A stretch of 32,443 nt of DNA, taken from NCBI GenBank assembly GCA_003170595.1, contig PMZA01000061.1:1-32443 (forward strand), given 5' to 3'. The DNA comes from Armatimonadota bacterium (GTDB lineage: Bacteria; Armatimonadota; Zipacnadia; Zipacnadales; FEN-943). Below are positions 5,719 to 23,460 of this stretch, in pieces (within the stretch, counting starts at the first letter, position 1; the number at the start of each line of letters is the position of its first letter). The notes beneath the pieces were generated by a model. It saw only the letters and a program-made list of their open reading frames with translations. It did no database searches and had not been told where the DNA came from. Position numbers and translations under genes: made by a program.

Positions 5719-8700
5719 ATGGCCCTGAGCCTTAGTCCCGCCAAATCTAGACCTTCTGCTGACTCGCGCCGTGCCCGCGTCGAGGGCCGCAGCTTCACCG
5801 AGGCGATATCGGGGCCCCTCGTCGCTCGCTTGCGTCGGCTTTCCGCCGAGCAGGGAATCTCCACGACCGCCGCGCTCCTCACCGCCTTCACGATCCTCCT
5901 CCACCGCTATACGCGTGGCGAGACGCAGCTCACCGTCGCCATCAACACGCGGCACCGGGTATCGGTAGCCCTCGACGATGACATGACCCTCGGCGATACC
6001 TTGCGCCAGGTGTCGTCCGCGCTGGAGCAGGCTTTCGTGGGTGAGGACCTCCCATGTCCCCTGAACGATGGCTCGGCTCCGACGACGGTTTCCTTCGAAT
6101 GGGAGGAGCCCGGCGGCAATCTTCTCGGCACCGACTCCGGTGACGAGCGCCACGGCCTGACCGTGTCGCTGCGCAACGATGGCGACGTGGTGGCCGAACT
6201 TTCCTTCTGCCGTCTCCTCGGCAACCGCGCGCCCGTGGTGGAAGTGGGAAGCCACTGGCGGACGCTGATCGAGAGCCTGGATGACAACGCGGACACCTGC
6301 ATCGGCGTGCTCCCGATCGTCGACGCCTACGAGCGCGACCGGCTGCTGCGGCAGTGGCGCGGCGAAGCGACCGTGGTCGCCGATGCCAGCGGTCCCGTGG
6401 ATCCGACGGCCGGCTGCCTCCATCATCTCTTCGAGGCCACGGCCGACGCCCACCCTCATCGCATCGCCCTGGAGTGCGGCGATCAGCGCCTCAGCTACAA
6501 GGAACTCGAGGCCCGGGCCAACCGCCTTGCGCATCATCTTCGCTCGCGCGGCATCGGGCCAGGCTCCTTCGTCGCCCTCTTCCTCCCGCGCTCGCTGGAT
6601 GTGTATGTCGCGATCCTCGCGGCTCTGAAGGCAGGGGCCGCTTATGTGCCCATCGATCCCGAGTATCCCGCCGATCGCGTTGCTTTCATCCTCCGCGACT
6701 GCGGCGTGGCCGTCGTCCTCACTGCTTCGAGCCTTCAACCGATTCTCTCGGATGTTGACTGCGAGGCCGTGCTCCTCGACGGCGATCCCGATGTGCTGGC
6801 TGCTCAGCCTGCCCAGCGCCTCACCGACGTCAAAGTCGGCCCTGCCGATCTTGCTTACGTGATCTACACCTCGGGCTCCACGGGCCGCCCCAAGGGCGTC
6901 CAGATTGAGCACCGCAGCGCCTGCAACCTCGTCCGGGCGGAGAGCGATATCTATCGCGTCGAGCCCGACGACCGCGTCTACCAGGGCTTTTCGATCGCCT
7001 TCGATGCGTCCGTCGAGGAAGTCTGGGCGGCCTTCTACGCAGGCGCGGCTTTGGTGGTCGGGACGAGTGAGATGATCCACTCCGGGCCCGCGCTGGCCGG
7101 GATGCTCGCCGATGCCGGCGTCACCGTTCTCTCGTGCGTGCCCACGCTCCTCTCGATGCTCGATGAGGACATCCCGACCGTGCGCCTGCTCATCCTCGGC
7201 GGCGAGCAGTGCCCGCAGGACCTCGTCTCGCGCTGGTGGCGAGAGGGGCGCCGCGTCGTCAATACCTATGGCCCGACCGAGGCCACCGTCATCGCGACTC
7301 ATGTCGAGTGCCGCCCGGAGGAACCGGTCACGATCGGCAAGCCCGTGGCGAGCTACGCGGTCTACGTCCTCGACAGCCACATGCAGCCCGTCCCCGCGGG
7401 CGTGCCCGGCCAGCTTCACATCGGCGGCGTCTGCCTCGCGCGCGGTTACATGAACCGGCCGGAGTTGACCGACGAGAAGTTCGTGCCCAACCCCTTCGCC
7501 GACGATCCCGGCGCTCCGTCGCGGCTGTACAAGACCGGCGACCTCGTGCGCTTTACCGCCGGCGGCGCCCTCGAATTCCTCGGCCGCATTGATGCCCAGG
7601 TTAAGATCCGCGGCTTCCGCGTCGAGCTGGCCGAGATCGAGTCCCAGCTTCGCCAGTGCCCCGGCGTCCAGAGCGCCATCGTTGCTCTGCGCGAGGACAC
7701 CCCCGGCATCCAGCAGCTTGTGGCTTACGTCATCCCTCTCCGCGAGGCCGCTTTCGACTCCTCCACCGCGCGCGAGCAGCTCCGCTATCGCCTGCCCGCC
7801 TACATGGTGCCCTCGGCCTTCGTGATCGTGGATGAGTTCCCGGCCATGCCGAGCGGCAAGGTTGACCGCCGCCGGCTGCCCGCTCCCGGCGCGGTCGTAT
7901 GCGGCGGCGAAGGCGTGCCCGAGGGGTCTTGCACGGTGATGGAGGGCCGCGTTCTGGAGGTTTGGCGGCGCTTATTCGCTACTCCGCATATATCGCCGGA
8001 TGACGACTTCTTCGAGCTTGGCGGACACTCTTTGCTGGCCGCGCGCATGGTCTCCGAGTTGCGCAAAGACCCGTCGATGGGCACCGCGACCGTGCTGGAC
8101 GTCTATAACCACCCGACGCTCGCCGCCTTCGCGTCCAAGCTTGAGGAGCGCGGGCGGGAGGATGCCGCGCAGGCTGCGGATGAGACCGCCGCGTCCGGTT
8201 CGGCCGCCGCCGAGCCTCACCGGGCTTCGCGTCTGTCCTACTACCTCTGCGCGCTCGCGCAGGTCGTGGGGCTCTACGCGGTGTACGGCCTGATGGGCCT
8301 CGGGCTGATCGTTGCCTATCTGCAGTTTGTGGCCGTGTACGAGCGCACCGGCGACCTCCTTCTGGCAGCGCTCTCGCTGGCGCTGCTGCCGATCCTGCTA
8401 ACTCCTACTGGCCTGGCGATCATCTTCGCCTCGAAGTGGATCCTCATCGGCCGCTACCGCGAGGGCGTCTGGCCGGTGTGGAGCTTCTACTACTGGCGCT
8501 TCTGGCTGGCCGCACGTATCCAGGCCTTGATGCCGCTGAACTATTTCCGAGGCACGCCCCTGCTGGTGATCTACGCGCGGCTTATGGGCGCGCGGATCGG
8601 CGCCCACGTGCATCTGGGCACTCGCTACCTGCACTGCTACGACCTGCTCACCGTCGGTGACGACTCCAGCGTCGGCCTCGACGCCCATCTGACCGGCTAC

Positions 8701-10446
8701 GAGGTCGAGGGCGGCCTCCTTCGCGTCGGCCCCGTCAGCATCGGCGATCGCTGCGAGATCGGTGCGCGGGCGGTCCTGGGGCTGGGCTCCGTGGTCGAGG
8801 ATGACGCCACGGTGGACGAGCTGTCGAGCCTGCAGGCCGGCATGGTCGTCAAGTCGCACGAACGTTGGGTTGGATCGCCGGCCCAGCCGCTGCCCCATGA
8901 GAACGGCAACGGCAAGCACGTCGACCCCTACCGTCCCGGCCGCGCACGGACGGTCGCCTACGGCCTCCTCTACTGGCTGAGCACCACGGTGCTGCTGCCC
9001 GCGGTGACGGTCCTTGGCTCGCTGCCCTCGCTAGCCATCTTCCTCCACGTTGCTCTGAGCCGGGGAATCGTTCCCGCGCTGCTGTGGTCGCCGGTTCTCG
9101 CGGCGATCTCCACCATCGTCTTCTGCCTGGAGATCGCGCTGGTCAAGTGGGCGCTGCTGGGCAGGATCAAGCCGGGCCGCTACACGCTCCATAGCGGGAT
9201 CTACTTCCGCAAGTGGTTCGTGGACTGCCTGATGCAGATGAGCCTGGAAATGCTGCACCCGCTTTACGCGACGATCTACCTGCCGCCGTGGTTCCGCATG
9301 CTGGGCGCCAAGCTCGGGCGCCGCGTTGAGATCTCCACGGCCTCGCATGTATCGGCCGACCTGCTCTCCCTCGGCGACGAGAGCTTCATCGCCGACTCGG
9401 CCTGCCTCGGCGCGCCGAAGGTGCGACTTGGCTATCTCACCGTTGCCGCGACGACCGTCGGCTCGCGCACCTTCATCGGCAACAGCGCCGTCATCCCCGC
9501 CGGCGCGCGGATCGGCGACAGCTCCCTCATCGGCGTCATGTCCACTCCGCCCAGCCGCAAGACCCTGGCCGAGCATCCGCATTCGTCCTGGCTTGGCTCG
9601 CCGCCGGTGCTTCTGCCGCGCCGCCAACCCAGCGCCTCCTTCCCGGATAGGCTCACCTTCAACCCGAGCTGGCAGCTCTACCTGCTTCGCGGCTTCATCG
9701 AGTTCTGGCGCGTGACGCTGCCGGCCACCCTCCTCGTGCTCATGGGCTCCAGCATGATCTACGCGACCTACGTCCTCGATCGCACCCTCGGGCCGCTGCA
9801 GCTTCTCGCGCTCTTCCCCTTCGTCTACTTCGCGGCGGCGTGGGCGACCACCCTCGTTGTGGTGGCGTTGAAGTGGCTCATCATCGGCCGCTACAAGCCG
9901 TGCACGAAGCCCCTGTGGAGCAGCTTCGTGTGGCGGAATGAACTGATCACCGCGATGCACGAGTCCTTCTGCGCGCCGGCCCTGCTGAACGCGCTGGAGG
10001 GGACGCCCTTCCTGGCGCCCTACTTCCGCCTCATGGGTTCGCGTATCGGCGGTCGCGTCTACATGGAGACCACGCAGATCACGGAGTTCGACCTCGTCGA
10101 CGTTGGCTCCGACGTGTCCCTCAACCTGACCTGCACCCTGCAGTCGCATCTCTTCGAGGATCGCGTCATGAAGGCCTCGACGAGCCGCCTCGGCGATGGC
10201 TGCACGCTCGGGCCGTGGGCGGTCGTCCTCTACGACACCGAGATGGCGGACGGCTCGAGCCTCGGCGCGCTCTCGCTGCTGATGAAGGGAGAGGCGCTTC
10301 CCGCGCGAACCGGCTGGCAGGGTATTCCGGCGCGGCGTGCCAGGGCTGGACGTGCGGAAGCGGCGGCTGAGGCCGTGCTCTCGTCGTCCTTCGTGGCCGA
10401 GGCGGCGAGCGCGAGCAGTCCGGTGCCTGTCGCCGAACTCGCCTGA
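5719..10446 (+). CDS. Pls/PosA-type membrane NRPS: truncated C, A, PCP and three membrane-flanked beta-helix domains
   Basis: The 1575-residue protein has four parts. Residues 20-215 resemble the C-terminal half of a condensation domain; the HHxxxDG half is missing. Residues 234-720 form an adenylation domain with A3 YTSGSTGRPKG (Lys392), A8-A9 region intact and A10 PSGKVDRRRLP (Lys714). Aligned to GrsA, the specificity code is D429 A430 E433 S472 I492 G494 T516 V524 I525 K714. The carrier domain is LGGHSLLAAR with phosphopantetheine site Ser771. From residue 840 on come three repeats of a hydrophobic membrane pair (about 840-909, 1079-1151, 1328-1391) each followed by a left-handed beta-helix hexapeptide domain. 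This is the layout of epsilon-poly-L-lysine synthetase (Pls), where the tandem C-terminal domains polymerise the amino acid; there is no thioesterase. Pls is about 1300 residues, and the extra length here is mostly the N-terminal condensation remnant. An in-frame stop at 5704 supports the ATG start; the ribosome site is weak. The code resembles lysine codes as I recall them. The polymer product is inference. Confidence 0.9.
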   Translation: MALSLSPAKSRPSADSRRARVEGRSFTEAISGPLVARLRRLSAEQGISTTAALLTAFTILLHRYTRGETQLTVAINTRHRVSVALDDDMTLGDTLRQVSSALEQAFVGEDLPCPLNDGSAPTTVSFEWEEPGGNLLGTDSGDERHGLTVSLRNDGDVVAELSFCRLLGNRAPVVEVGSHWRTLIESLDDNADTCIGVLPIVDAYERDRLLRQWRGEATVVADASGPVDPTAGCLHHLFEATADAHPHRIALECGDQRLSYKELEARANRLAHHLRSRGIGPGSFVALFLPRSLDVYVAILAALKAGAAYVPIDPEYPADRVAFILRDCGVAVVLTASSLQPILSDVDCEAVLLDGDPDVLAAQPAQRLTDVKVGPADLAYVIYTSGSTGRPKGVQIEHRSACNLVRAESDIYRVEPDDRVYQGFSIAFDASVEEVWAAFYAGAALVVGTSEMIHSGPALAGMLADAGVTVLSCVPTLLSMLDEDIPTVRLLILGGEQCPQDLVSRWWREGRRVVNTYGPTEATVIATHVECRPEEPVTIGKPVASYAVYVLDSHMQPVPAGVPGQLHIGGVCLARGYMNRPELTDEKFVPNPFADDPGAPSRLYKTGDLVRFTAGGALEFLGRIDAQVKIRGFRVELAEIESQLRQCPGVQSAIVALREDTPGIQQLVAYVIPLREAAFDSSTAREQLRYRLPAYMVPSAFVIVDEFPAMPSGKVDRRRLPAPGAVVCGGEGVPEGSCTVMEGRVLEVWRRLFATPHISPDDDFFELGGHSLLAARMVSELRKDPSMGTATVLDVYNHPTLAAFASKLEERGREDAAQAADETAASGSAAAEPHRASRLSYYLCALAQVVGLYAVYGLMGLGLIVAYLQFVAVYERTGDLLLAALSLALLPILLTPTGLAIIFASKWILIGRYREGVWPVWSFYYWRFWLAARIQALMPLNYFRGTPLLVIYARLMGARIGAHVHLGTRYLHCYDLLTVGDDSSVGLDAHLTGYEVEGGLLRVGPVSIGDRCEIGARAVLGLGSVVEDDATVDELSSLQAGMVVKSHERWVGSPAQPLPHENGNGKHVDPYRPGRARTVAYGLLYWLSTTVLLPAVTVLGSLPSLAIFLHVALSRGIVPALLWSPVLAAISTIVFCLEIALVKWALLGRIKPGRYTLHSGIYFRKWFVDCLMQMSLEMLHPLYATIYLPPWFRMLGAKLGRRVEISTASHVSADLLSLGDESFIADSACLGAPKVRLGYLTVAATTVGSRTFIGNSAVIPAGARIGDSSLIGVMSTPPSRKTLAEHPHSSWLGSPPVLLPRRQPSASFPDRLTFNPSWQLYLLRGFIEFWRVTLPATLLVLMGSSMIYATYVLDRTLGPLQLLALFPFVYFAAAWATTLVVVALKWLIIGRYKPCTKPLWSSFVWRNELITAMHESFCAPALLNALEGTPFLAPYFRLMGSRIGGRVYMETTQITEFDLVDVGSDVSLNLTCTLQSHLFEDRVMKASTSRLGDGCTLGPWAVVLYDTEMADGSSLGALSLLMKGEALPARTGWQGIPARRARAGRAEAAAEAVLSSSFVAEAASASSPVPVAELA

Positions 10447-14071: not shown

Positions 14072-15154
14072 ATGACCATGACGAGCATCGAACGCATGAA
14101 CAATGTCCTCGCCCGCAAGCCTGTCGACGTCACCCCGGTCGCCGTCAGCCCCTGGGGCGCGACCATCGATCGCTGGCGGCGCGAAGGCCATATCGGCCCG
14201 GAGGAAGATGTCGCCCTGCACTTCGGCCAGGACTTCCGCTCGGCCGGCTGGCTCAATAGCACCGCCGACCTCCTGTTCGAGGTGAAGACCCTCGAGGAGA
14301 CCGAGGAGACGATCCTCCAGATCGACGGCAACGGCGCCATGCTCCGCCGCCACAAGCTCCACGACAGCACGCCCGAGCACGTCGACTTCACGGTCAAGGA
14401 GCGCAAGGGCTGGGAGGAGATGACCAAGCCCCACCTGGTCGATCTGGACCGCCGCCGCATTCCCTTCGACGGCTATCGCGACACCCGGAAGTACTGCGCC
14501 GACAAGGACCTCTGGTTCGCCTGGGGCGGCGTTGCGCCCTTCGAGTTGATGCACCCCATCTGCGGCCACGAGTACATGCTGATGGGCATGGCCGAGGATC
14601 CCGATTGGGTCAGGGACATGGTCATGACCTTCTCCGACTGGACGATCATGCACCTAGAGGTCCTTTTCGCCGAGGAGGGCAAGCCCGACGGCTTCTTCTT
14701 CTACGAGGACATGGGCTTCAAGTTTCGCCCCTTCATGTCGCCGGCGTCGTACCAGGCGATCATCGAGCCGGGCCACAAGAAGCTCTTCGACTATGCTCAC
14801 TCGCTCGGCTGCAAGGTCATGGTCCACTCCTGCGGCTACGTCGAGCCCCTCGTGCCCGGCATGATCCGCGCGGGGATGGACTGCCTGCAGGCGATGGAGG
14901 TCAAGGCGGGCATGGACCTGCCGACCCTCTTCAACCGCTTTGGCGACCAGATCGCCTTCTTCGGCGGAGTGGACGTCCGCTGCCTCATCAGCAACGACCG
15001 CGCGGCGATCGATGCCGAGATGGATGCGAAGATCCTGCCGGTGGTGACGGGCGGGGGCGGCTACATCCTCCACTCCGATCACTCCGAGCCGCCGGAGATC
15101 GACTACGAGACGATGCGCTACTTCGTCGACCGCGGACGCACGTTGGGGCGCTAG
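14072..15154 (+). CDS. Uroporphyrinogen decarboxylase (UroD/MtaA)-superfamily protein, third zinc ligand missing
   Basis: The 360-residue protein starts with the family-typical opening (SIERMNNVLARKPVDVTPV) after a strong GAAGGAG ribosome site at 14056. It contains HSCGY (His252, Cys254), the H-x-C pair that binds zinc in corrinoid-type methyltransferases of this superfamily, and FFGGVDVR. At the place where methyltransferase members carry the third ligand, a Cys, this protein has HSDHSEPPEID. By alignment to the second family member in this window, an Ile occupies the Cys position. Haem-type uroporphyrinogen decarboxylase is unlikely: the gene is not among haem genes, and the usual N-terminal Arg-rich substrate motif is not evident. 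No corrinoid protein is adjacent. Its position after a glycosidase and a dehydrogenase suggests a catabolic role, possibly demethylation; this is inference. Confidence 0.85.
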   Translation: MTMTSIERMNNVLARKPVDVTPVAVSPWGATIDRWRREGHIGPEEDVALHFGQDFRSAGWLNSTADLLFEVKTLEETEETILQIDGNGAMLRRHKLHDSTPEHVDFTVKERKGWEEMTKPHLVDLDRRRIPFDGYRDTRKYCADKDLWFAWGGVAPFELMHPICGHEYMLMGMAEDPDWVRDMVMTFSDWTIMHLEVLFAEEGKPDGFFFYEDMGFKFRPFMSPASYQAIIEPGHKKLFDYAHSLGCKVMVHSCGYVEPLVPGMIRAGMDCLQAMEVKAGMDLPTLFNRFGDQIAFFGGVDVRCLISNDRAAIDAEMDAKILPVVTGGGGYILHSDHSEPPEIDYETMRYFVDRGRTLGR

Positions 15155-15259: not shown

Positions 15260-16714
15260 CTACTGGGGCGCCGCCGCAGGCAGGGCCGTCGTGGTGGGTG
15301 CCGGAGCTGGCCTGGTCGGCGCAGCCGCGGCTGGTGGCGCAAGGGCTCTGCCGACGGCATGGGCCAGCGCAGCCCGGGCCGTATCCAGCGCAGCCTGGGA
15401 GTTCACGCTGTTGATGTTGGCGGTATCAAGCTGCGTCTCGGCGTCCAGAACCTCGATGAAGATGGCCACACCGGCGCGGTAGCGACCCTGCGCGATGCGC
15501 AGAGCCTCCTGCGCGTTGACCACCTCGGCGTTGGCGGCCGTCAGCTTCTGCTCGTCGGTCTTGACGCTCAGATAGGCCTGCGCGACGTCGGATATGACGC
15601 CCAGACGCTGCGTCTCGTACTGGGCCTGCGCGGTCTGCAGATCGGCCTGGGCCTGTTTGATCAGGCCGGCGGTGAAGCCCGAGTCCACGGGTGTCCACTG
15701 CAGCCCCACCGAGATGCCTACCGCCCGGTTGCTGGGCGGAAAAACCGAATCGAAGGCTGCGACGCCCGCGCTGCCCACGATCGACGGCTTGTTGTTGGTC
15801 CGCGCGGCGAGGACCTCGAAGTTCGCGGCCTGGATGGCCGAGAGCGCCTGCACCATCTCCGGCCGCTGGTTGAGCCCCTGTTCCGCGAGAGCGTTCAGGT
15901 CCTCACCCGCGATCTCGGGCTCGCCGACGTTCGCCGGTTCGATGGGGGTGCGTGGATCGACGCCGATGGCCAGCGCCAGGGCAATGCGCGAGGCCGTGGC
16001 GTTGGCGCGGGCCGTCGCCAGGTCGAATACCGCCTGCGTGTAGGCGGTCTGGGCCGTGACAACATCCGCCGGCAGGCCCAGACCCGTCTTGAGCCGCGCC
16101 TGGGCCAGGGCGAAGTGCCCCAGCCGGTTGCGCACGTTGGTCTCGCTGGTCTTCACAAGCCGGACGTTCTGCAGGTACGTGTAGAAGGCCTGCTTCACCT
16201 GCAGGGCGAGGTCGGCCTGGGCCTTGGTGAGGATCGCCTGCGCTGAGCGCTCGACGGCCATGGACTCGTGCACCAGGTCGCGCGTATGGTTGAAGTCGTA
16301 GATCAGCTGCCGGCCGATGGCGGAGGCCGAGTACACGTTCGAGCCGAGTCCACTGCTGCTGGAGGACGAGCCTGTGTTCGAGGTCCCGGCGGCGACCTCC
16401 CCGCTCACGGACACCGACGGCTTCAGCAAGGACTGCTCCTGCTGGACCCGTCCCTGGGCGCCTGCTACCCCGGCCCGCGCCACCGAGATCGAGGGCTGGT
16501 GGTGCAGCGCGAGCTGTACGGCTTCGTCCGCCGTGAGTGGCCGATTGGGCACATCCGGCTGCGCCACCGGTGGCGGTGGAAGGACTACCGGCGGCGGCAG
16601 TGGCAGCTCCAGGATCTTCGGCATGACCGGCGGCGTCGGCTGCTGGGCCAAGCCCGGCGCGGCCGCGCACGCCATCAGCGCCACCGAAGCTGCCAGTAGA
16701 AGGTATCGAGCCAT
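15260..16714 (-). CDS. TolC/OprM-like outer membrane efflux protein
   Basis: The 484-residue protein forms the outer membrane channel of a tripartite pump. It starts with an export signal (MARYLLLAASVALMAC...LAQQ); LMAC could be a lipobox, as in OprM-type lipoproteins, or simple signal peptidase I cleavage after GLA could apply. A Pro-rich linker (residues 30-55) precedes two homologous halves with the usual helical repeats: LTADEAVQLALHHQPSI at the start of the first half and LNALAEQGLNQRPEM at the start of the second, and RYRAGVAIFIEVLDAETQLD near the end. The C terminus is Ala/Pro/Thr-rich. The ATG at 16714 follows a GGGGAGGG site by 8 bases and is preferred to a GTG three codons earlier. 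It is the last gene of the efflux operon, 34 bp after the MarR gene. Confidence 0.92.
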   Translation of the reverse strand: MARYLLLAASVALMACAAAPGLAQQPTPPVMPKILELPLPPPVVLPPPPVAQPDVPNRPLTADEAVQLALHHQPSISVARAGVAGAQGRVQQEQSLLKPSVSVSGEVAAGTSNTGSSSSSSGLGSNVYSASAIGRQLIYDFNHTRDLVHESMAVERSAQAILTKAQADLALQVKQAFYTYLQNVRLVKTSETNVRNRLGHFALAQARLKTGLGLPADVVTAQTAYTQAVFDLATARANATASRIALALAIGVDPRTPIEPANVGEPEIAGEDLNALAEQGLNQRPEMVQALSAIQAANFEVLAARTNNKPSIVGSAGVAAFDSVFPPSNRAVGISVGLQWTPVDSGFTAGLIKQAQADLQTAQAQYETQRLGVISDVAQAYLSVKTDEQKLTAANAEVVNAQEALRIAQGRYRAGVAIFIEVLDAETQLDTANINSVNSQAALDTARAALAHAVGRALAPPAAAAPTRPAPAPTTTALPAAAPQ

Positions 16715-16748
16715 TACCCACACCCTCCCCTTAACGGGTCAAGCACAT

Positions 16749-17219
16749 CTAGCGTCTTCCCGCGGCATCCGCACTCGACTCGCGCGAGGCGTCGGATACC
16801 GCATCATCCATCATGCTCAGCGCCCGGATCACGTTCTCCCGCGCCTCGAGGGGCAGAGACGAAAGCAGGGCCATGACGCGCTGCACATGCCGCTCGTTGC
16901 GCTCGCGCATGACTCGCTCGGCGCTGGGCGTCAATTGGAGGACCCGCACGCGCCGGTCATCCTCATCGCGCACGCGCTGCACGAAATCCGCGCGTTCCAG
17001 CCGGTCCGCGATCTGGGTCATGGCGCTCAGCGACATGCCGAGGTCGCGACTGAGGTTGGACATCGGCAGCGGCCCCTCGGCCAGCACGGCACATACGCGC
17101 AGTTGAGCGACCGACAGCTTCCCCGCCGGATCATCCTCGTCCAGAGCAAAAAGATGCCGCATGACCCGGGGCATAGCCTTCACGACAAGCCTTGCCTGGT
17201 CCTTCAGGTCGTCCGTCAT
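16749..17219 (-). CDS. MarR-family transcriptional regulator
   Basis: The 156-residue protein has the MarR winged helix-turn-helix: LSVAQLRVCAVLAEGP (residues 35-50), a helix-turn-helix around LSRDLGMSLSAMTQIADRLE with the recognition helix near residues 63-75, and the wing DEDDRRVRVLQLTP (85-98). Long helices at both ends would form the dimer interface. MarR proteins usually repress nearby efflux genes and release DNA on binding small phenolic or hydrophobic ligands. The gene lies inside the operon it probably controls. Its ATG overlaps the TGA stop of the RND pump gene by four bases (ATGA), so its synthesis is translationally coupled to the pump. The candidate operator is the 18-bp palindrome over the operon promoter. 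Confidence 0.92.
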   Translation of the reverse strand: MTDDLKDQARLVVKAMPRVMRHLFALDEDDPAGKLSVAQLRVCAVLAEGPLPMSNLSRDLGMSLSAMTQIADRLERADFVQRVRDEDDRRVRVLQLTPSAERVMRERNERHVQRVMALLSSLPLEARENVIRALSMMDDAVSDASRESSADAAGRR

Positions 17220-20200
17220 TTCTCCCTCCTGGCATGGAAGATGTTGACCAGGTCATCGAGGCCGGAGTAGACGCACGGCACGACGAAGAGCGTCAGGACT
17301 GTCGAGGTCGCGAGGCCACCGATGACGGCCGTCGCCATCGGTGCCTGGATCTCCGAACCGAGCCCGCAGGCGATAGGCAACATGCCGAGGATCGCGGCGG
17401 AGGCGGTCATCAGGATGGGGCGCAGTCGCGTCGGGCCCGCGCGGAGGATGGCCTCCTCTCGCTCGAGGCCCTCTTTGCGCAGATGGTTCGTGTAGTCGAC
17501 GAGAAGGATGCCGTTCTTGACCACGATGCCCACCAGCAGCAGCACGCCGATGAAGGCTGTGAGACCAAAGGACCGGCCCGTCAGGAAGAGGCCGAGACAC
17601 ACGCCGGTGATGGCCAGCGGGACGGATAGCAGGATCGTCAGCGGGTGCAGGAAGTGGTTGAACTGCGACGCCAACAGCATGTAGATCAGCGCGATCGCCA
17701 TGAAGACCGCCAACCCCAGGCCGGCGAACTCCTCGGCCTGACGCTTCTGGTTGGTGCCCCAGTCCCAGTAGTAGCCCGCCGGCAGCTTCATGTCGCCGAT
17801 GGCCTTCTGGATGTCCTTCTGAATGTCGCCCGACGACCGGCCCTGCGGGTTGCCGACGACGGCGATGTAGCGCTGGCGGTCCTGGCGCGTGATCTGGCTC
17901 GGGCCCGTCGAAAGTATCGGTTGGGCCACCTGGCTGAGCATTATGCCCGCTTCCGGAGTCCCTGCCGGAGCCCCCGACGCCGTCATCTGCGCCGACGGAA
18001 CCGACGGGAAGATCACTATGTTCTTCATCTCCGCGATGGTCTTGCGCGTAGCCTCAGGCTGCTGCACCAGGATCGGATACTCGAAGCCATTTTCGTTGAA
18101 GTAGCTGGCGATGGTCCCGTTCGTCGCCGTATTGATGGTGTTGGCCACGTCGGAGAAAGTGAGCCCGAGCTGGTTGGCCTTCTCGCGATCCACGTGCCAC
18201 TGGATCTCGGGCATGGCCTCCTGCCAGTTCACGTCCTGGTTCTCGAACCCGGCGATGCCGCGCGTCTTGTCCATCACGTCCTTGGATAGCTGCGACAGCG
18301 TGCCGAGGTCTTGGCCAAAAATGTCCACCTCAACGGTGTTCGAACCACCCGTCATCAGCATGCTCACGATGTCGCGCTGATCGATGAGCGTCCTCGCTCC
18401 CGGCACACCAGCGAACTTCTTGCGCAGGTCCTGCATTACTTTCAGGGTCGATTGCTTTCGGCTATCCTTCAGGTGCACCGTGATCGAGCCCTGGAAGGGG
18501 ATGAGCCGTGTGGAACTGCCGCTCAGGCTGAGGTTGCTGCCCGACGCCGAGAAGGCCGTCTCCACATTCGGGTTGGCCAGCAGGGTCTTCTCCATCTGCC
18601 GCATGGTCGCATCGGTTTGGGCCAGCGATGTGCCGATGGGCAGCTTCATCGTGATGCTGAAGTCGCCGCTGTCGGTCTGCGGCATCATCTCAACGCCGAT
18701 CAGCGGCACCAGCAGCAGGCTCAGGCAGGTGACGCCCACAGCCGCGCCTACCGTCATCAGCCGGTGGTTCAAGGCCCACGCCAGGCCGTTACGGTAGTTT
18801 TTATCGATGACATCAAAGATCCTGCCGTAGAACAGAAACAGCCTCTTGAGCCAGCTCTGGTGCTCGGAATCAGCATCCAGCGACTCGGCGTGTTCTTCAG
18901 CCGAGAGCAGCTGCGTCGCCAGCACCGGCACGACCGTCGATGCATCGAGCAGGGAGAGGGCGATGGCGAAGATGACCACCACGGCGAAGGACGTGAACAT
19001 CTCGCCGGCCTGGCCCTTGATGAAGATCAGGGGCAAGAAGACGACCATGATGGTCCAGGTCGACGCGAACACGGCCGACAAGATCTCGCTCGTCCCGTCC
19101 ACGGCCGCGTCGTAGATGCCCTTCTTATCACGTTCCAGGTGCCGGAAAATGTTCTCAAGCACCACCACCGCGTCGTCGACGATCAACCCCGTCGAGAGGG
19201 CGAGTCCGCCCAGCGTCATCGTGTTGAGGCTGAACCCCGCCAGGTACAGCAGGGCGAAGGTCGAGATGATCGAGATGGGGATGGACAGGCCGACGACCAG
19301 GGTGCTGCGGATGTTGCGCAGGAAGAACAGCAGGATCAGCACGGCCAGGAGGCCGCCGATGATAGCGCTGGATTCGACGTCCTGGATGGACTTCGAGATG
19401 TACGACGCCTGGTTGTACGCCAACCCGAACTTCAGGTTCGGGTAGATCTTGTGAACCTGCTTGATCTTCTCGTCCACCGCCTGAGCGCAGGCTACGGTGT
19501 TGGCTGCGCTCTGCTTCGACACGATAAGACCCACGGCCGGGCTGCCATTGTACCGCGTGAAGATGCGGGTCTCGCTGTGGCTGTCCTTGACGCTGGCGAC
19601 ATCGCCCAGAGTTACCAGGTGACCGTTGAAGGTAGACAGAGGGATGGCGGCCATGTCCTCCGGGCTCGTCAGCCACCCCAGGCTGCGGACCACATACTCG
19701 GTGTTGCTCTCCTTGGCGATGCCGGCGGGAAGGTTGATGTTCTCCTGGACGATCCGGTTGGTGACCTGGTCCAGGGAGATGTTCGTGGCCTTCATCTTGA
19801 TCGGGTCGACGTTGACAACGATGGCCCGCTGGTCGCCGCCGGTGGCCACGGCCGAAGCCACACCATTGGCCGCCTCGATCATCGGGGTGATCTGGTTGTC
19901 CATCTCCATGCGGAGCTTGATCGCATCGGTCTCGCCCGACACGCCGTAGATGAGGATCGGTAGCTGAGTGGGGTCGAACCTGAAGACCAGCGGCGTCTGC
20001 AGCGTGGGGTCGTTCGTGGGGAAGTTCTGCCGGGCTCGTTCCACAAGCTGGAGAACGTCCACGGCTGCCTGCCCGATGTCCGTCCCCCAGTTGAACGTCA
20101 CGATCACCGTGGAGGTGCCCTCGATCGTCGTGGACCGTATCTGGTAGAGGTTGTTGACAGCCGATACCGCTTCCTCGATGGGCCTCGTGATCTGAGTCTC

Positions 20201-20377
20201 GATCTCTTCGGGCGCTACGTTCGGCCACGTCGTCGAGACCGCCACGACGGGGATCGTTACGTTCGGAAGTAGGTCTACCGGCAGCCGCAGTACGCAGATC
20301 GCCCCGAGCAACACGAACGAGGCAATCCGCATCCACACTGTTACCGGCCGGTTAATGGCCCCGCGAGCTATGTTCAT
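17216..20377 (-). CDS. RND-family multidrug efflux pump, inner-membrane transporter (AcrB/MexB-like)
   Basis: The 1053-residue protein has the size and layout of AcrB-type proton/drug antiporters: an N-terminal transmembrane helix (ASFVLLGAICVL), a periplasmic loop, a six-helix block, a second loop and a final six-helix block. Proton-relay residues are present: Asp401 and Asp402 in GLIVDDAVVVLEN (AcrB D407/D408) and Lys954 in VGIVVKNGILLVDYTN (AcrB K940). The start INRPVTVWM and PNVAPEEIE near residue 54 are typical of the family. A short Thr/Ala/Gly-rich insert occurs near residue 800. The ribosome site AGGTGA precedes the ATG by about 7 bases. It lies 18 bp after the adaptor gene. The charged C terminus is short. 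The exported compound is unknown; drug, metal and lipid-exporting RND pumps cannot be told apart here, but the metal-specific CusA/CzcA pattern is not obvious. Confidence 0.95.
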   Translation of the reverse strand: MNIARGAINRPVTVWMRIASFVLLGAICVLRLPVDLLPNVTIPVVAVSTTWPNVAPEEIETQITRPIEEAVSAVNNLYQIRSTTIEGTSTVIVTFNWGTDIGQAAVDVLQLVERARQNFPTNDPTLQTPLVFRFDPTQLPILIYGVSGETDAIKLRMEMDNQITPMIEAANGVASAVATGGDQRAIVVNVDPIKMKATNISLDQVTNRIVQENINLPAGIAKESNTEYVVRSLGWLTSPEDMAAIPLSTFNGHLVTLGDVASVKDSHSETRIFTRYNGSPAVGLIVSKQSAANTVACAQAVDEKIKQVHKIYPNLKFGLAYNQASYISKSIQDVESSAIIGGLLAVLILLFFLRNIRSTLVVGLSIPISIISTFALLYLAGFSLNTMTLGGLALSTGLIVDDAVVVLENIFRHLERDKKGIYDAAVDGTSEILSAVFASTWTIMVVFLPLIFIKGQAGEMFTSFAVVVIFAIALSLLDASTVVPVLATQLLSAEEHAESLDADSEHQSWLKRLFLFYGRIFDVIDKNYRNGLAWALNHRLMTVGAAVGVTCLSLLLVPLIGVEMMPQTDSGDFSITMKLPIGTSLAQTDATMRQMEKTLLANPNVETAFSASGSNLSLSGSSTRLIPFQGSITVHLKDSRKQSTLKVMQDLRKKFAGVPGARTLIDQRDIVSMLMTGGSNTVEVDIFGQDLGTLSQLSKDVMDKTRGIAGFENQDVNWQEAMPEIQWHVDREKANQLGLTFSDVANTINTATNGTIASYFNENGFEYPILVQQPEATRKTIAEMKNIVIFPSVPSAQMTASGAPAGTPEAGIMLSQVAQPILSTGPSQITRQDRQRYIAVVGNPQGRSSGDIQKDIQKAIGDMKLPAGYYWDWGTNQKRQAEEFAGLGLAVFMAIALIYMLLASQFNHFLHPLTILLSVPLAITGVCLGLFLTGRSFGLTAFIGVLLLVGIVVKNGILLVDYTNHLRKEGLEREEAILRAGPTRLRPILMTASAAILGMLPIACGLGSEIQAPMATAVIGGLATSTVLTLFVVPCVYSGLDDLVNIFHARREK

Positions 20378-20395
20378 GCCCCAATCACCTTTCGC

Positions 20396-22132
20396 CTAGT
20401 AACCACTCTTCGAGCCGGCCCCAGCAGGCGTTTGAGGTTGTCCCGCGGGCGGCGCTGCCGGCGCTTGACCAGCCGGCGCGCTCTGCTGTTCTGACGAGGG
20501 ACCGGTCTGGGCCTGACCGCCTGGGCCTCCCGCTGCGGTAGCACCGGGGGCTCCTCCGGCGGCGCCGCCAGTCTCGACCTTGGCGCCGTCCTTCACGGGC
20601 GCGGAGGTGAGCACGACAACGTTCTCGCCGGCTGCCAGCCCGCTCGTGATGCTCGTGAAGTTGGCGTCGGCCAGGCCTGTGACCACAGGTGTGAAGTGAG
20701 CGATCTTGTCCGCGCCGACGACGATGACGTAGGGGCCGGTTGGCCCCTTCTGGATCGCTTCGTGCGGCACAGCCACGGCGTGCGGCGACCGCGCGGTGAC
20801 GATGGAAGCATTGCCGAACATCCCCGGCTTGAGTTCCCCGGTGGGGTTCGACATGGCCGCTCGGACGGTGAATTGGTGCGCCTGAGGGTCGGCCGAGGGG
20901 TTGAGCTGGACGATCGTCGCCGTGAAAGTGCGTCCGGGCAGCCCGTCGAACACGACGGTGATGTCCTGGCCCGTGCGGAGCGTGCCGGCCACCTCAGAGG
21001 GCACCGAAACGTTCACCCACACGTTGCCGAAGAACCGCACTTCCAGGATCTCCTGGCCCGCCGTGGCTACCGCGCCCGGGTCCATCAAACGCCCGGTCAC
21101 ATAGCCGTCGAGCGGCGAGACTAACACGGTATCCGAGAGCTGTGCCCTCGCCGCGGCCACGCTCTGCTGGTTAACGGAGACCGTCGCCCGCAGCGCCTTG
21201 AGGCTCTGCTCGTAGGCCGGTATCTGCGGCCTGTTGGCGTTGGCGAACGTCAGGGCCGCCCGCATTTGCAGGAGCTTCTGCCGCGCGGCCTCGATGTTGG
21301 CCTGGCCGCTGACCTTGGTGATGCTCAGCTGGTTGGTGGCGGCCTTCTTCTGAGCTTCGGCCGAGTCCCGCGCCGCCGTTGCCGAGGCAAGCTGGCTCTG
21401 CCCCTGCGCCACCGCCGCCTGCTGGACGAGGACCGTTGCCTTCGCGTCATCGACGTCCTGAGCCGCGATGAAGCCGTCCTTGTATAGCGCATTGGTGCGG
21501 TCGTACTTGATCTTGGCGTCGTTGAGATTCGCCTGCGCGCTATTGATGTTGGCGCGAGCGACGTTCATCGAGCCGAGGGCGTTGTCGATCCGTCCCTGGG
21601 CATCGGTGACGGCGGCCTCGGCGGCTGCGACCTGGGCGGCATAGTTCTCCCGCGCCTGCTCGTAGTCGGCGTTAGCGCTAGCCACCGCTGCCTTCTGGGT
21701 CTGGATGTTGGTACTAACCTGAACGTTGGTCGGCGTCTGCGTGAACTGCGCCTGGGCCAGCCGGTACTGAGCCTCGGACAGCGCGGCCTGCGCCTGCCGG
21801 ACCTGGGCCAAGACCTGGGAGTTGTCGACGCGCACCAGAACCTGGCCTCGCCGCACGCGGTCGCCCTCGTGGACTTGCAGGAAGATGATGCGGCCCGTGA
21901 CCTTCGGCGAGATCTTCACGGTCAAGGGCGACTCAAGCGTGCCCGTTGCCGTGAAGACGTTGGTGATGTCGCGCAACTCGACCGGGGCAAGGGAGACCTT
22001 GGGGGCGGCAGTGCTGCGCGCAATCCGTTGCTGCTGCAACTGCGCCTGCTGTGCCCGCTTGGCCACCATTCTCCACGCTAGCAAAGACCCCAATATCAAA
22101 ACGGGGATGAGGACGAGTATCAGCCGCCTCAC
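20396..22132 (-). CDS. RND periplasmic adaptor subunit (membrane fusion protein), unusually long coiled coil
   Basis: The 578-residue protein bridges the inner pump and outer channel. An N-terminal membrane anchor (ILVLIPVLILGSLLAW) leads to a Gln-rich stretch, the first lipoyl half (ATGTLESPLTVKISPKVTGRI, then VHEGDRVRRGQVLVRVD), a long Ala/Gln-rich helical hairpin (about residues 100-335), the second lipoyl half (VSPLDGYVTGRLMDPGA), beta-barrel and membrane-proximal domains (VAVPHEAIQ), and a low-complexity Gly/Ala/Pro/Gln tail from about residue 520. Family members are usually 350-420 residues; here the hairpin is roughly twice the usual length and the tail is extra. The start is a GTG with GAGGGGG 6 bases upstream. 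It is the first gene of the operon, under the promoter at 22183-22211. Confidence 0.92.
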   Translation of the reverse strand: MRRLILVLIPVLILGSLLAWRMVAKRAQQAQLQQQRIARSTAAPKVSLAPVELRDITNVFTATGTLESPLTVKISPKVTGRIIFLQVHEGDRVRRGQVLVRVDNSQVLAQVRQAQAALSEAQYRLAQAQFTQTPTNVQVSTNIQTQKAAVASANADYEQARENYAAQVAAAEAAVTDAQGRIDNALGSMNVARANINSAQANLNDAKIKYDRTNALYKDGFIAAQDVDDAKATVLVQQAAVAQGQSQLASATAARDSAEAQKKAATNQLSITKVSGQANIEAARQKLLQMRAALTFANANRPQIPAYEQSLKALRATVSVNQQSVAAARAQLSDTVLVSPLDGYVTGRLMDPGAVATAGQEILEVRFFGNVWVNVSVPSEVAGTLRTGQDITVVFDGLPGRTFTATIVQLNPSADPQAHQFTVRAAMSNPTGELKPGMFGNASIVTARSPHAVAVPHEAIQKGPTGPYVIVVGADKIAHFTPVVTGLADANFTSITSGLAAGENVVVLTSAPVKDGAKVETGGAAGGAPGATAAGGPGGQAQTGPSSEQQSAPAGQAPAAPPAGQPQTPAGAGSKSGY

Positions 22133-22178
22133 GCGGCACCCCCTCTGTCCAAGCGGTTGATACTGCTGTTATGTGTAA

Positions 22179-22196
22179 AGTTAATATACATGAACT
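22179..22196. promoter_or_regulatory. Candidate MarR operator palindrome
   Basis: AGTTAATATACATGAACT is an 18-bp imperfect palindrome, symmetric at 14 of 18 positions (AGTTnATnTAnATnAACT). It covers the -10 box of the pump operon promoter, where a bound MarR dimer would block RNA polymerase. Assignment to the operon's own MarR protein is inference. Confidence 0.5.
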
Positions 22197-22211
22197 ATTA
22201 CCGGTCGTCAA
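22183..22211 (-). promoter_or_regulatory. Sigma-70-type promoter of the efflux operon
   Basis: Read on the minus strand, TTGACG (22211-22206) and TATATT (22188-22183) are separated by 17 bases; each hexamer matches the consensus at five of six positions. Transcription would begin near 22176 and give a leader of about 44 bases before the adaptor GTG. Confidence 0.65.
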
Positions 22212-22299
22212 CTTACTTTCTTTCCATGCGCGGTTTGAGGTTGAGCCGCCGATGTACTACCATGGTCCCGATTCCACTGCGTCTGCCGGAGACGAACCT

Positions 22300-23460
22300 A
22301 TGCTACCCCGTGAACGTGTCGCCCTTGCCCTTGCCCACGAAGAGCCCGACCTCCTGCCGTGGGGCGAGCATTCCATCGACTACAACATCTACGAGATGAT
22401 CCTCGGCCGCGAGAGCTTCGTGCAGGGAAAGATACGCGAGACGAAGGCGCTCTGGGAGGGCCGCCGCGACGAGGTCGTCGCCTGCTACAATCGCGACATC
22501 CCCGACCTTGTCGACGCTCTCGGCATGGATATCGTAACGGTTGGCCAGTCGCCCAGTTCCCTCGGCAATCCGACGCCCCTCGAGGAAGTCGACGAGGAGA
22601 CCTATCGCGACCCTTCCGGCAATCTCTTCCGCGTCTCGGCCGCCACGCATCAACTCATGCCCTACAAGATCAACGTGAGCGACTACCAGCCGCCCACCCT
22701 CGATCAGCTTCAGGAGCAGATCGACCGCCTCGATGCCGACGGGCTCCAGAAGCCTGACGACTCGTGCTGGGAGACGATGCGCCACGTCGTCGCCGAGAAG
22801 AAGGCGACGCACTGGATCAACTCCTGCTGCGGCGGGATGGGCTTCCCGTCCTTCGGCCCGACCGACGAGGAGCAGTACCTCAACATGGCGCTCTACCCCG
22901 AGCTTCTCCCCAAGCTCGCCGAATTGCAGGCGAAGTGGTGCATGGCGACGCTGCCCTGGTACGCGGAGGAGGGCGTGGACTCGGTCATGCCGTGCGCCGA
23001 CCTCGGCACCTCGACGGGCCTCTTCGCCAACCCCTCGATCCTCGACGTGTGCGTGAAGCCGTGGTGGGGCGAGTACATAAAGCGCGCCCACGACCTCGGG
23101 CTCAAGGTCCTCAAGCACTGCTGCGGCTGCATCTGGGAAGCGCTGCCGATGATCTGCGAGGCAGGCTTCGACGGCTACGAGGGCATCCAGGCGAGTGGCA
23201 CGATGGACATGAAGCGCCTCAAGGAGAGCTACGGCGACCGCCTTGTGCTGTGGGGCGGCATCTGGCACGAGCACCTGCTCCTGGGCACTCCGGAGCAGAT
23301 CGAGGCCGACGCGAAGTATTCGATCAAGTGGGGCGCCCCGGGGGGCGGGATGATCTACGGCTCGAGCCATTCGCTGGCGGTAGGCTGCAAGCCTGAGAAC
23401 CTCGAAAGGATGCGTGCCAGCCGCGAGAAGTACGGCGTCTACCCGATCAGCATCGACTAG
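22300..23460 (+). CDS. Uroporphyrinogen decarboxylase (UroD/MtaA)-superfamily protein with intact H-x-C...C metal site
   Basis: The 386-residue protein begins MLPRERVALALAHEEPDLLPWG, the usual start of stand-alone UroD-family proteins. The ATG at 22300 follows a GGAG site by 8 bases; in-frame starts further upstream (22171, 22252) would add a non-conserved extension. The zinc ligands expected for corrinoid-type methyl transfer are complete: His273 and Cys275 in KHCCGCIW, and Cys363 in LAVGCKPEN. This contrasts with the other family member in the window, which lacks the last Cys. It is monocistronic, divergent from the efflux operon with a 167-bp shared control region, and convergent with the glycosidase genes. 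No corrinoid protein or MtaB-like partner is adjacent. A methyltransferase role is inferred from the ligands only; it could act on methylated sugars, aromatics or a corrinoid. Confidence 0.85.
   Translation: MLPRERVALALAHEEPDLLPWGEHSIDYNIYEMILGRESFVQGKIRETKALWEGRRDEVVACYNRDIPDLVDALGMDIVTVGQSPSSLGNPTPLEEVDEETYRDPSGNLFRVSAATHQLMPYKINVSDYQPPTLDQLQEQIDRLDADGLQKPDDSCWETMRHVVAEKKATHWINSCCGGMGFPSFGPTDEEQYLNMALYPELLPKLAELQAKWCMATLPWYAEEGVDSVMPCADLGTSTGLFANPSILDVCVKPWWGEYIKRAHDLGLKVLKHCCGCIWEALPMICEAGFDGYEGIQASGTMDMKRLKESYGDRLVLWGGIWHEHLLLGTPEQIEADAKYSIKWGAPGGGMIYGSSHSLAVGCKPENLERMRASREKYGVYPISID

Follow-up and report, generated by a model that had tools for sequence, protein, structure and literature searches.

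What does the 1575-residue synthetase encoded near the start of this Armatimonadota contig assemble, and from which amino acid? Polycationic homopolymers serve as food preservatives and have antimicrobial, antifungal, and cell-penetrating activity; to our knowledge, few of their producers have been characterized, and finding a lysine code in a synthetase of an uncultured phylum widens the set of candidates to examine. The window analyzed here covers an entire contig of 32.4 kb; the draft genome to which it belongs has 6.45 Mb and is 84.5% complete. On sequence, structural modeling, and analogy, we consider the protein to be a membrane-bound member of the Pls/PosA family that synthesizes a homopolymer on its own, with L-lysine as the most likely substrate and ε-poly-L-lysine as the product (probability of about 0.76). 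The basis observed in the sequence and the model consists of the domains, the adenylation code, the intact motifs, the fold, and the relatives. The features are as follows.

5719..10446, + strand: Pls/PosA-family single-module synthetase, open reading frame of 1575 aa, TIGR02353 match of 645.6 bits
5719..6411, + strand: N-terminal extension, aa 1-231, probable degenerate condensation C-lobe and C-A linker, without HHxxxDG
6430..7878, + strand: adenylation (A) domain, aa 238-720, code residues D429, A430, E433, S472, I492, G494, T516, V524, I525, and K714
7948..8133, + strand: carrier (PP-binding) domain, profile match at aa 744-805, GGHSLLA, phosphopantetheine Ser771
8257..10332, + strand: TIGR02353 polymerization domain, profile match at aa 847-1538
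8230..8445, + strand: membrane helix pair 1, aa 838-909 (AlphaFold2 model and hydropathy)
8590..8901, + strand: left-handed β-helix 1, about aa 958-1061 (AlphaFold2 model; Foldseek matches to hexapeptide acyltransferases)
8941..9156, + strand: membrane helix pair 2, aa 1075-1146 (AlphaFold2 model and hydropathy)
9307..9612, + strand: left-handed β-helix 2, about aa 1197-1298, with near-invariant E1204, S1206, T1207, D1226, F1252, and N1255 (AlphaFold2 model and alignment)
9670..9882, + strand: membrane helix pair 3, aa 1318-1388 (AlphaFold2 model and hydropathy)
10039..10341, + strand: left-handed β-helix 3, about aa 1441-1541, with near-invariant Q1475, H1477, F1479, D1481, and R1482 (AlphaFold2 model and alignment)

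The open reading frame starts at an ATG with AGGA just before it and could be extended in frame by at most 4 codons. Its product matches TIGR02353 ("Pls/PosA family NRPS") over the full length of the profile (positions 2 to 695 of 695) and 222 bits above the curated cutoff of 423.1, which bears out the family assigned to this gene in a preliminary description made from the sequence. A single A domain is followed by a carrier domain with Ser771 in its GGHS motif; there is no thioesterase among the profile matches and no functional condensation domain, the motif scan having found no HHxxxD and the Condensation match being partial and weak. An AlphaFold2 model of the C-terminal part (742 aa, 37 sequences, pLDDT of 91.4, pTM of 0.90) contains three long helix pairs, each followed by a left-handed β-helix, and the six membrane helices in three pairs are also backed by a hydropathy scan. 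The modeled fold agrees with that predicted for the PosA domain in PMC10522769. Among solved structures, Foldseek matched this domain only to hexapeptide-type acyltransferases and γ-carbonic anhydrases, each with partial coverage. Near-invariant residues among 88 aligned proteins include E1204, S1206, T1207, F1223, D1226, F1252, G1254, N1255, Q1475, H1477, and R1482. The core motifs of the A, T, and C-terminal regions are intact, the gene has no stops, and its GC content by codon position is normal. On profiles, model, and hydropathy, the A domain, the carrier, the three membrane-flanked β-helix domains, and the lack of a thioesterase thus stand as first described, but residues 1 to 231 had been missed.

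We aligned about 90 family members and read the ten code positions of the A domain from the result. In PosA, the same columns land on residues 217, 218, 221, 260, 280, 282, 304, 312, 313, and 502 and yield DMEHNGTVSK; since these residue numbers and this code agree with those given in PMC10522769, the mapping is validated. For the window protein, the columns give DAESIGTVIK, the same residues as read initially, and the likeness to a lysine code claimed for them is strengthened by the A domain of ε-poly-L-lysine synthetase (PDB 7WEW), whose code, DAESIGTVVK, is one conservative change away and serves better for comparison than DAESIGSVCK, the bacitracin synthetase BacB code named at first. Within the aligned set, in which some rows are duplicate records, DAESIGTVVK occurs in 46 rows and DAESIGTVIK in 18, and DAESIGTV(I/V)K is found in relatives from seven phyla. 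Rows with exactly DAESIGTVIK come from Verrucomicrobiota, Planctomycetota, Myxococcota, Bacteroidota, Armatimonadota, and Arthrobacter (Actinomycetota), and the DAESIGTVVK variant is that of most Actinomycetota, one cyanobacteriotal row, and some Bacteroidota. According to PMC10522769, lysine-activating members have an alanine at the position of PosA Met218, and the M218A exchange raises the lysine activity of PosA; the window synthetase has an alanine at the equivalent position. Its code differs from that of PosA at positions 2, 4, 5, and 9, and the other codes compared were those of ornithine-coded proteins (DMEHNG), β-lysine-coded proteins [DGES(V/I)S], and a protein from a PDAB context (DFECLSAVTK).

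Several codes of other family members are worth recording in their own right. A Pls/PosA gene with the code DFECLSAVTK on a plasmid of Streptomyces sp. NBC_01527 (L149, 1326-8045) is directly followed by diaminobutyrate transaminase and aspartate kinase genes and, because of these adjoining genes, probably encodes a poly-diaminobutyrate synthetase. Seven Armatimonadota TIGR02353 proteins (L129-L135, in genomes G168, G213, G167, G157, G240, G192, and G201) have the code DGESLGTVGK in common and form a separate clade with good support; DGESLGTVGK does not appear in the parts of PMC10522769 examined and may correspond to a different or larger substrate. A second Armatimonadota group, TIGR02353-like but below the cutoff (L007-L014, L136-L138, L140, and L141), has DSECYGGVTK, the code of a Bdellovibrionales protein with reported modest arginine activation. 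Genomes G167 and G168 each carry both types.

A tree was built from 39 rows and 1,174 columns covering the carrier, the C-terminal region, and part of the A domain. The window protein had no strongly supported sister in it, and the rows nearest to it were lysine-coded proteins from Verrucomicrobia, Humisphaera, and Chamaesiphon. Placement in a clade with the PosA-type ornithine-coded enzymes, a result that would have spoken against a lysine product, was rejected by the AU test (P = 5.06e-5, or 5e-5 when rounded). Placement with actinobacterial Pls (P = 0.25, with a poorly supported tree backbone) or with lysine-coded Armatimonadota (P = 0.38) was not rejected, and groupings with β-lysine-coded (P = 0.052) or PDAB-like (P = 0.094) proteins were disfavored but not formally rejected. 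Because of these results, we infer the product from the pocket and the family and not from close kinship to a characterized enzyme.

How such an enzyme would work is suggested by Pls, for which a review (PMC8949500) describes adenylation of L-lysine and its transfer to the carrier, after which the three-part membrane domain couples it to free lysine or to the growing chain in repeated rounds. By analogy, the window protein has every part needed for this scheme, and the substrate, the isopeptide linkage, the acceptor mechanism, and the polymer product are drawn from the studied relatives. The A domain would activate L-lysine with ATP, with D429 holding the α-amine, E433 holding the ε-amine, and A430 giving room for a side chain of lysine length. 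Lysine would then be loaded onto the phosphopantetheine arm of Ser771, and the membrane/β-helix domain would couple the lysyl group on the carrier to a free acceptor, lysine at first and Lys-n thereafter. Repeated isopeptide coupling would yield ε-poly-L-lysine without a condensation domain or a thioesterase, and the N-terminal condensation C-lobe remnant would be catalytically dead and probably only pack on the A domain.

The genomic setting adds further information. For both genes flanking the synthetase gene, close relatives occur in the same family, order, and class (orthologues with 60 to 66% identity from that order and class for the gene downstream, relatives with 49 to 56% identity for the gene upstream), and contamination of the contig is therefore unlikely. 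The genes downstream encode a glycosidase-like protein, a dehydrogenase, and a URO-D/MtaA-like protein. We rejected a conserved neighborhood as a guide to the product, as no window neighbor is syntenic with other family loci; in the two genomes with a close orthologue of the downstream gene, no further common gene was found around that orthologue. No diaminobutyrate, β-lysine, or diaminopropionate precursor genes were recognized in the 32.4-kb window, which fits a proteinogenic substrate. The host genome encodes two ACPS-family proteins, the second and longer of which (an open reading frame of 243 aa) is, from its sequence, a candidate Sfp-type activator that could load the carrier of the synthetase. 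At some family loci, a 4'-phosphopantetheinyl transferase gene comes immediately after the synthetase gene (L148, 5612-6169; L048, 6668-7390); this is not so in the window. Elsewhere in the window, an RND efflux set (TolC-like protein, AcrB-like pump, and HlyD-like adaptor) lies at 15260-22132 on the minus strand, convergent to the synthetase block, and two URO-D/MtaA-like proteins (14072-15154 and 22171-23460) are encoded amid melibiase-like, GH42-like, and GH123-like genes, pointing to a glycan-degradation region.

The poly-lysine reading is thus preferred because of the TIGR02353 match, the code close to that of 7WEW, the alanine at the PosA Met218 site, the PosA-like fold, and the rejection of the PosA-type clade, as well as the lack of recognized diamino-acid precursor genes in the window, the candidate Sfp-type activator, and the intact motifs without stops. 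Against it we counted the distance to the characterized lysine synthetases, with 45.6% identity to the 7WEW A domain and, in the C-terminal region, about 33% to L085, the Streptomyces relative. The loose placement in the tree, the AU results for the β-lysine-coded and PDAB-like groupings, and an N-terminal region foreign to the characterized enzymes also count against it. It is unlikely that the same class of enzyme here activates and polymerizes another diamino acid, namely, ornithine, 2,4-diaminobutyrate, or β-lysine. Family members with similar pockets do use Orn, DAB, DAP, and β-Lys, and one residue shifts the Orn/Lys preference, as in PosA M218A (both from PMC10522769), and the AU tests leave the β-Lys- and PDAB-like groups not strictly excluded; however, Ala at position 236 together with Ser-Ile-Gly-Thr-Val is exactly as in the lysine type, the Orn, β-Lys, and PDAB-context codes differ, the PosA-type clade is rejected, and no precursor gene was recognized in the window.

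We regard it as quite improbable that lysine is activated and no long homopolymer is made, with the enzyme producing short oligomers or transferring lysine to a lipid, polyamine, or surface glycan via its acyltransferase-like β-helix domain. Such an activity would suit the hexapeptide acyltransferases and γ-carbonic anhydrases that are the only PDB structural relatives of the C-terminal domain, the PosA product of only 7 to 12 units, and the glycosidase-like, dehydrogenase, and URO-D/MtaA-like genes downstream, but the TIGR02353 enzymes for which PMC10522769, also the source of the PosA chain length, reports a product make homopolymers, and the neighboring genes say little because they are not conserved in relatives. 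Very little probability attaches to a degenerate or unexpressed acquired gene in which the truncated condensation domain would be the trace of an NRPS fusion that broke: the distribution is sporadic, with no protein above the cutoff in other searched genomes of the order or class, and the N-terminal C domain is incomplete, but the A, T, and C-terminal motifs are intact, stops are absent, codon-position GC is normal, and comparably truncated extensions are seen in other phyla as well.

That extension sets the poly-lysine synthetase candidate apart from the best-studied members. Pfam Condensation matches aa 16-80 over profile positions 218-281 of 456 (E = 5.7e-4, 19.1 bits, below the cutoff of 30.6); a full-length C domain of ~450 aa is not present, the extension being only 231 aa long and without a detected HHxxxD. 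A PDB sequence search with the extension alone gave no match, and the longer PDB matches that reach into the A domain begin at about residue 147, in PvdL C-A regions. Its AlphaFold2 model, from eight sequences, is moderate (pLDDT of 62), and the best Foldseek matches are mostly NRPS C domains, nonsignificant with an E value of only 0.04. With a GC3 of 0.82, the extension is coding-like, and its codon-position composition is as in the rest of the gene. Similar extensions, 180 to 250 aa long and with a C-lobe pattern, are found ahead of the A domain in Pedobacter, in several Hymenobacter proteins, and in a lichen Myxococcales MAG, and those of L041, L049, L055, and L036 are only 22 to 28% identical to that of the window; the AU test of the extension carriers as a single clade gave a P value of 0.068, which neither demonstrates nor firmly rejects a common origin. 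The other complete Armatimonadota proteins above the TIGR02353 cutoff have 1,335 to 1,387 residues and hence lack the extension, there being no room for it at that length. Pls and PosA start straight at the A domain, and the PosA A domain was cloned as residues 1-512 (PMC10522769). From its sequence, aa 1-231 is a probable vestigial, degenerate C-lobe of a condensation domain, and this remnant is a clue to how a polymerase free of C domains came from ordinary NRPS modules. More speculatively, and with rather low probability, a poly-lysine synthetase subform in Armatimonadota, Bacteroidota, and Myxococcota may retain the shrunken C-lobe for a role that Pls and PosA do without, such as a platform for the A domain, chain-length control, or acceptor binding; if so, the origin of the family would be tied to ordinary C-A-T modules.

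The novelty of such an enzyme in this lineage was initially overstated: the family is widespread, being reported across many bacterial phyla in PMC10522769, and proteins above the TIGR02353 cutoff occur in 13 of 291 Armatimonadota genomes, several with the identical DAESIGTVIK code, and in none of the other searched genomes of the host's family, order, or class. A literature search on the exact codes, on Armatimonadota ε-poly-lysine, and on the enzyme in Hymenobacter or Pedobacter found nothing relevant, nor was a paper found on Armatimonadota members of the family, an absence that is weak evidence.

Among known systems, Pls from Streptomyces albulus shares with the window protein the order of A, T, and three membrane-flanked domains without C or TE domains; the codes differ by one residue, whereas A-domain identity is only 45.6%, the host phylum is different, and only the window protein has the 231-aa condensation-like N-terminal region. 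PosA, the δ-poly-L-ornithine synthetase of Acinetobacter baumannii, has the same architecture, and the conserved pocket Asp, Glu, and Thr are present in both (PMC10522769 for PosA); however, its code is DMEHNGTVSK, its clade is separate, and identity is 41.4% in the A domain and 33.8% in the C-terminal region. Closer are the uncharacterized proteins of Verrucomicrobia (L033), Humisphaera (L034), and Chthonomonadaceae (L042), which have the code of the window protein and 53 to 62% A-domain and 40 to 46% C-terminal identity but lack its N-terminal extension, whereas the Hymenobacter, Pedobacter, and lichen Myxococcales proteins combine a lysine code with a C-lobe-like extension, as in the window. 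Taken together, the window synthetase is a further member of a known, widespread family; its phylum has been little studied, and its architecture departs modestly from the usual one.
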